Of a stretch of 42,710 bases of DNA, positions 18,689-19,243 are shown in pieces. The notes beneath the pieces were generated by a model that was given only the letters and a program-made list of their open reading frames with translations, did not search any database and was not told the origin of the DNA. Position 1 is the first letter of the stretch. Each line of letters opens with the position of its first letter. The stretch comes from Alphaproteobacteria bacterium (GTDB lineage Bacteria; Pseudomonadota; Alphaproteobacteria; GCA-2731375): the NCBI GenBank assembly GCA_030746635.1, contig JASLMH010000016.1:1-42710 (forward strand). Reading direction: 5' to 3'. Both the position numbers and the translations under genes were made by a program.

Positions 18689-19243
18689 ATGCCACGACTA
18701 CCGGAATTGACCATGGCGGCGGCCGCACCGGCGGTGCGCGAGATGATGGCGGCACAGGAACGCCTGTTCGGCTTCGTCCTCAACCCGATCAAGCAGATGG
18801 GCCATTGCCCGACCATCGCCGAAGGTCAGGTGGCGTTGACCCAGGGCATCGAGAAGGCGGGGCATATCGAAGGCAGCCTGCGTTCGCTGATCTATATGCG
18901 GGTCGCCACCCTGAACGGCTGCCCGTTCTGACTGGACATCAATGCGTCCCGTGGGATGCAGGAAGGACTAAGCGAGGACCAACTGGTCGCCGTCGGCGAC
19001 TACGCCGGCAGCCCGCATTTCTCGACCCGCGAGGCGCTGGCCCTGAAATATGCCGATCGCATCACCCTGAGCGATCAGGACGTCGATGACGCGCTGTTCG
19101 AAGAACTGCGGGCCGAGTTTGCCGAGCCGGCGGCGATCGTCGAGTTGACGGCGATCGTGGCCTTCGAGAACTTCCGCAGCAAGTTCAACCATGCCCTGCA
19201 GGTCGAGGCCAACGGCGTCTGCCCGGTGAAGCTGACGCCCTGA
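18689..19243 (+). CDS. Carboxymuconolactone decarboxylase / AhpD-like protein, predicted selenoprotein with Sec at codon 81 (TGA 18929-18931)
   Basis: ORFs 18689..18931 and 18956..19243 share one frame, separated only by TGA. The readthrough product (184 aa) is continuous CMD sequence: RSLIYMRVATLNGCPF[U]LDINASRGMQEGLSEDQLVAVGDYAGSPHFSTREALALKYADRIT. TGA falls at the second Cys of the family CxxC. Confidence 0.8.
18943..18960 (+). promoter_or_regulatory. Candidate bacterial SECIS hairpin
   Basis: UGCGUCC (18943-18949) - loop CGUG (18950-18953) - GGAUGCA (18954-18960), 7 bp including one G-U pair. 18 nt separate the UGA from the apical loop, and G is in the first two loop positions. Confidence 0.65.

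Follow-up and report, generated by a model that had tools for sequence, protein, structure and literature searches.

A bacterial SECIS hairpin behind an in-frame UGA of a predicted AhpD/CMD-fold selenoprotein in an alphaproteobacterium

An in-frame TGA and the predicted product

In contig JASLMH010000016.1 of an alphaproteobacterial draft genome, a reading frame is interrupted by a TGA that is followed closely by a small hairpin, which raises the question whether this codon ends translation or is decoded as selenocysteine (Sec) under the direction of a bacterial SECIS (bSECIS) element. The window, that is, the whole stretch of 42,710 nucleotides that was analysed, carries the following features at this locus.

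18689..19243, + strand: predicted selenoprotein gene, CMD/AhpD-like, 184 aa (Pfam CMD, AlphaFold2)
18920..18922, + strand: TGC codon of Cys78, the partner of Sec81 in CxxU (invariant column of alignment A1)
18929..18931, + strand: predicted Sec-encoding TGA, residue 81 (20 homologous loci have TGA here, 14 others a Cys codon)
18943..18960, + strand: predicted bSECIS hairpin UGCGUCC-CGUG-GGAUGCA (sequence, RNAfold, synonymous-codon null, covariation)
18943-18949, + strand: 5' arm of the hairpin, UGCGUCC
18950..18953, + strand: apical loop CGUG, with G second and U third; predicted site of contact with SelB
18954-18960, + strand: 3' arm of the hairpin, GGAUGCA
19241-19243, + strand: terminal stop TGA of the predicted selenoprotein gene

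When the frame is read through, the CxxU site of the product is GCPFU and the Pfam CMD domain (PF02627) spans residues 43-123, across Sec81 (E 2e-11), with a score of 44.1 bits against a gathering threshold of 23, which places the protein in the CMD/AhpD family. The AlphaFold2 model of the read-through product (pLDDT 93) is a single helical AhpD-like domain in which Sec81 sits near a helix start, and Foldseek matched it to AhpD-like structures with TM scores of about 0.7-0.87, the best being peroxidase-related AhpD-like proteins and AhpD of P. aeruginosa. The product probably has a redox role, as a peroxidase or in thiol-disulfide chemistry. A 2-hydroxyacyl-CoA dehydratase D-component-like gene (PF06050; 21756-23147, - strand) lies nearby and has no evident link to the gene.

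Geometry of the hairpin and its chance level

Read from position 18929, the sequence is TGA CTG GAC ATC AAT GCG TCC CGT GGG ATG CAG. The initial annotation had described a 7-bp stem with one G-U wobble, a 4-nt loop with G at its second position and 18 nt between the UGA and the apical loop, all of which agree exactly with the sequence positions, the single G-U pair being 18946-18957. The RNAfold calculation that it had proposed places the hairpin in the minimum free energy (MFE) structure of 18929-18968 (-11.3 kcal/mol). The published bSECIS model asks for a loop of 3-9 nt, a stem of 4-16 bp, an MFE <= -7.5, a G within the first two loop positions and a spacing of 16-37 nt (PMC13188914), and the loop G is usually followed by G or U. 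The window hairpin falls within every one of the limits checked (loop, stem, loop G, spacing and MFE); no tested feature differs from the published bacterial consensus, and the stem and loop both lie toward the lower limit of the permitted sizes.

Such a fit says little by itself. The hairpin was not significant against dinucleotide shuffles, 17 of 200 of which folded as well (z -1.36), single-sequence fold z-scores being uninformative here, and an Rfam scan of the window gave no match at gathering scores. Moreover, 44 of the 917 TGAs in the GC-rich window (about 5%) are followed, under the same model, by a stem of at least 7 bp with a loop of at most 5 nt, so the hairpin alone is weak evidence. 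This base rate speaks for reading the TGA as an ordinary stop, in a decaying CMD pseudogene or through a sequencing error, with a chance hairpin in GC-rich DNA behind it. When synonymous codons were resampled with the amino acids fixed and the codon usage of these genes, the hairpin had P = 0.006. That it goes beyond chance follows from its conservation and covariation in the homologues.

Conservation and covariation among homologues

Homologues were collected in a scan of genome contigs and in a search across the class. The Sec codon is TGA in 20 loci, including the window, and a Cys codon in 14. Of the 20 TGA loci, 19 have a hairpin whose spacing from the TGA is 17-20 nt and in which five or six of the six inner pairs form (L012 and L013 have one stem mismatch each); the loop G at position 2 is present in all 19 of these hairpins, and the U at position 3 in 18. 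The exception is L017 (VBAF01000424.1; 1916-1955), which has the TGA and lacks the hairpin codons, the remaining protein being intact; this gap is either an assembly deletion or a loss of the SECIS. None of the 14 Cys homologues has a stem of five or six pairs together with the loop G at the hairpin position. As for single loci, the match of the TGA homologue L071 (G071:C3:49147-49689) also includes one TAG, and in the TGA homologue L019 (JAJPIA010000099.1) the upstream part appears to be frameshifted relative to the others. The Cys homologue L023 (G006:C171) has a perfect hairpin of 11 bp, with a spacing of 32 and a P of 0.0002 under the synonymous-codon null, which may be chance among 33 loci.

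The pairing was assessed on 16 distinct arm pairs anchored at the loop. Standard pairs fill 91.1% of the cells, compared with 59.7% in shuffles, and two-sided changes occur at all seven pairs, in 31 cells versus 7.3 in shuffles. Since arms picked for each sequence by its hairpin lean toward structure, the control in which the arms were slid matters here: the covariation score was 0.775 for the stems, 0.153 when shuffled and 0.042-0.224 when slid, the slid control thus lying far below. For example, the stems TGCGTCC/GGATGCA, TTCCAGC/GCTGGAA, TTCCGTC/GACGGAA and CCGCCTC/GAGGCGG all pair though the encoded residues differ. The initial annotation had named a lack of stem conservation among TGA-bearing orthologues as evidence against the element; the hairpin is kept in nearly all of them, with compensation at every pair. 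Its proposed comparison of TGA with Cys orthologues also came out in favour, as two-sided changes mark the TGA stems and the element is absent from all the Cys loci.

These results bear directly on the ordinary-stop explanation. Several of the homologues do come from draft metagenome assemblies, as that explanation would have it. However, the TGA occupies one and the same codon in all 20 loci, one of them in a single-contig genome (G082), the protein downstream of the TGA is conserved, and the stems covary. Furthermore, when the window is compared with its nearest relative, L008, of the 11 codons that follow the TGA nine are identical, one is synonymous and one is changed, whereas only 29 of 80 codons upstream of the TGA and 17 of 48 further downstream are identical; among codons for identical amino acids, the deficit of synonymous differences after the TGA has a Fisher P of 0.04. 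We therefore regard a plain stop with an accidental hairpin as extremely improbable.

Selenocysteine machinery and the reading of the UGA

A conserved hairpin behind a conserved UGA might also be a generic stimulator of readthrough, with the codon decoded otherwise, by Trp or Cys suppression or by plain readthrough. To this explanation it can be granted that Sec is inferred rather than seen directly, and that the draft assembly yields no tRNA-Sec: the Rfam model, two pattern searches and a same-family probe did not find it in the window's genome, the assembly of which is 83% complete. The matches to the tRNA-Sec model there are other tRNAs, the best three being tRNA-Ser with anticodons CGA, TGA and GGA. 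The tRNA-Secs of the same family are 81-88% identical to the probe used, and the same search found a tRNA-Sec in 13 of the 14 genomes of this family and in each of the six further TGA-bearing genomes examined; the anticodon was TCA in each of the nine checked with ARAGORN.

Against decoding by other means, each of the Cys homologues has the catalytic Cys of the AhpD/CMD proteins at the place of the TGA, and the element matches the loop pattern that SelB recognises. In addition, the window's genome has adjoining selA and selB genes (L001) and a SelD gene (L057; 399 bits), which itself encodes a predicted selenoprotein, its in-frame TGA falling where SelD is known to carry Sec (HGGGUGCK; L057:1531, G000:C210). 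Behind the TGA of SelD, at spacing 20, stands a SECIS-like hairpin whose CGUGCU loop has the CGUG apex in common with the window hairpin. TGA homologues were found solely in genomes with SelB (7 of 7 tested), whereas nine of the 12 class-search genomes with only the Cys form lack SelB and three have it. Decoding of the UGA as anything other than Sec is accordingly very improbable in our judgement. Formate dehydrogenase alpha-like matches in the window's genome were also considered as selenoproteins; they have no in-frame TGA, so no further selenoprotein comes from them.

It is the comparative evidence, namely the TGA homologues, the covariation and the Cys homologues without the element, that settles the SECIS reading, and with the SelA, SelB and SelD genes it supports the assignment of the hairpin to the predicted Sec codon made in the initial annotation. 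We conclude that 18943-18960 is almost certainly a bacterial SECIS that directs Sec insertion at the UGA of an AhpD/CMD-fold CxxU protein. By analogy with known systems, SelB binding by the hairpin and Sec insertion at residue 81 are predicted as follows. SelB, carrying GTP and Sec-tRNA(Sec), would bind the CGUG apical loop on the mRNA through its C-terminal winged-helix part, and Sec would be placed at the UGA 18 nt upstream of the loop instead of termination. The expected product would be a single-domain AhpD/CMD-fold redox protein with Cys78 and Sec81 as a CxxU in place of the CxxC of ordinary relatives. The general picture of Sec insertion is unchanged by this element.

Phylogeny and possible transfer

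The contig could be placed in its family by a neighbouring luciferase-like gene, which has counterparts of 66-73% identity in seven genomes of that family. In the tree, the TGA loci group together, apart from the Cys loci, and the Chloroflexi locus L018 has a basal, poorly resolved position on the Cys side. The nearest relative of the window protein, L008, is from Candidatus Tectomicrobia (68% identity over 181 residues, TGA conserved), while alphaproteobacterial TGA loci are near 45% identity to the window protein; a Cys paralogue in the window's own genome (L036) has 34% identity. A TGA version of the gene is lacking in all 14 further genomes of the same family, and the genes next to the window gene do not recur around the TGA homologues. 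Because the nearest relative belongs to another phylum with the SECIS codons almost unchanged, and because the same-family genomes lack the TGA version, we tentatively consider that the window gene and L008 could together make up a divergent subfamily of AhpD-like selenoproteins that passed from one phylum to another with its TGA and SECIS intact, a scenario that we hold to be possible, if somewhat short of probable.

Relation to known selenoprotein families

Selenoproteins with a CxxU site and a bacterial SECIS, both AhpD-like (COG2128/YciW) and CMD-domain ones, were described from the Sargasso Sea in 2005 (PMC1088965), and AhpD-like/YciW and CMD-like CxxU selenoproteins are in current catalogues (PMC9312934, PMC13188914). 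The AhpD-like selenoprotein (COG2128/YciW, TIGR01926) shares with the window gene the CxxU, the AhpD/CMD fold, a bSECIS directly after the UGA and widespread Cys homologues, but the window protein scores 37 bits where the TIGR01926 cut-off is 81.8 bits. Its best family match is NCBIfam NF053654, 'YciW-related (seleno)protein', over residues 2-175 (147.2 bits, E 4e-43), which all 13 members of alignment A1 also match; since this score is far under the curated cut-off of 310 bits, the window protein lies outside that equivalog as defined. With the CMD domain-containing selenoprotein of the Sargasso Sea (PF02627; 'AhpD-like 2' in GOS), likened here by description, it has the CMD domain and CxxU in common. 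Sec81 is followed by DIN, whereas many CMD relatives have HH or NH there. Judged from these sequence comparisons, the hairpin and the protein belong to kinds that are already known, the protein being a divergent member.

What the locus adds is a well-supported selenoprotein gene, which standard gene calling would break, as the frame does without readthrough, into ORFs of 80 and 95 aa, and whose SECIS has the support of strong covariation in about 19 loci. The SECIS stems and loops of the homologues (CGUG, GGUC, AGUC and GGGU) offer a natural series on what SelB needs. Besides these loci, an ORF with a distant likeness to CMD proteins (L047, G013:C5:220291-220764), in a genome of the same family as the window's, has an in-frame TGA at a CxxU site (DCFYU, then IPTH) and is possibly a further selenoprotein.
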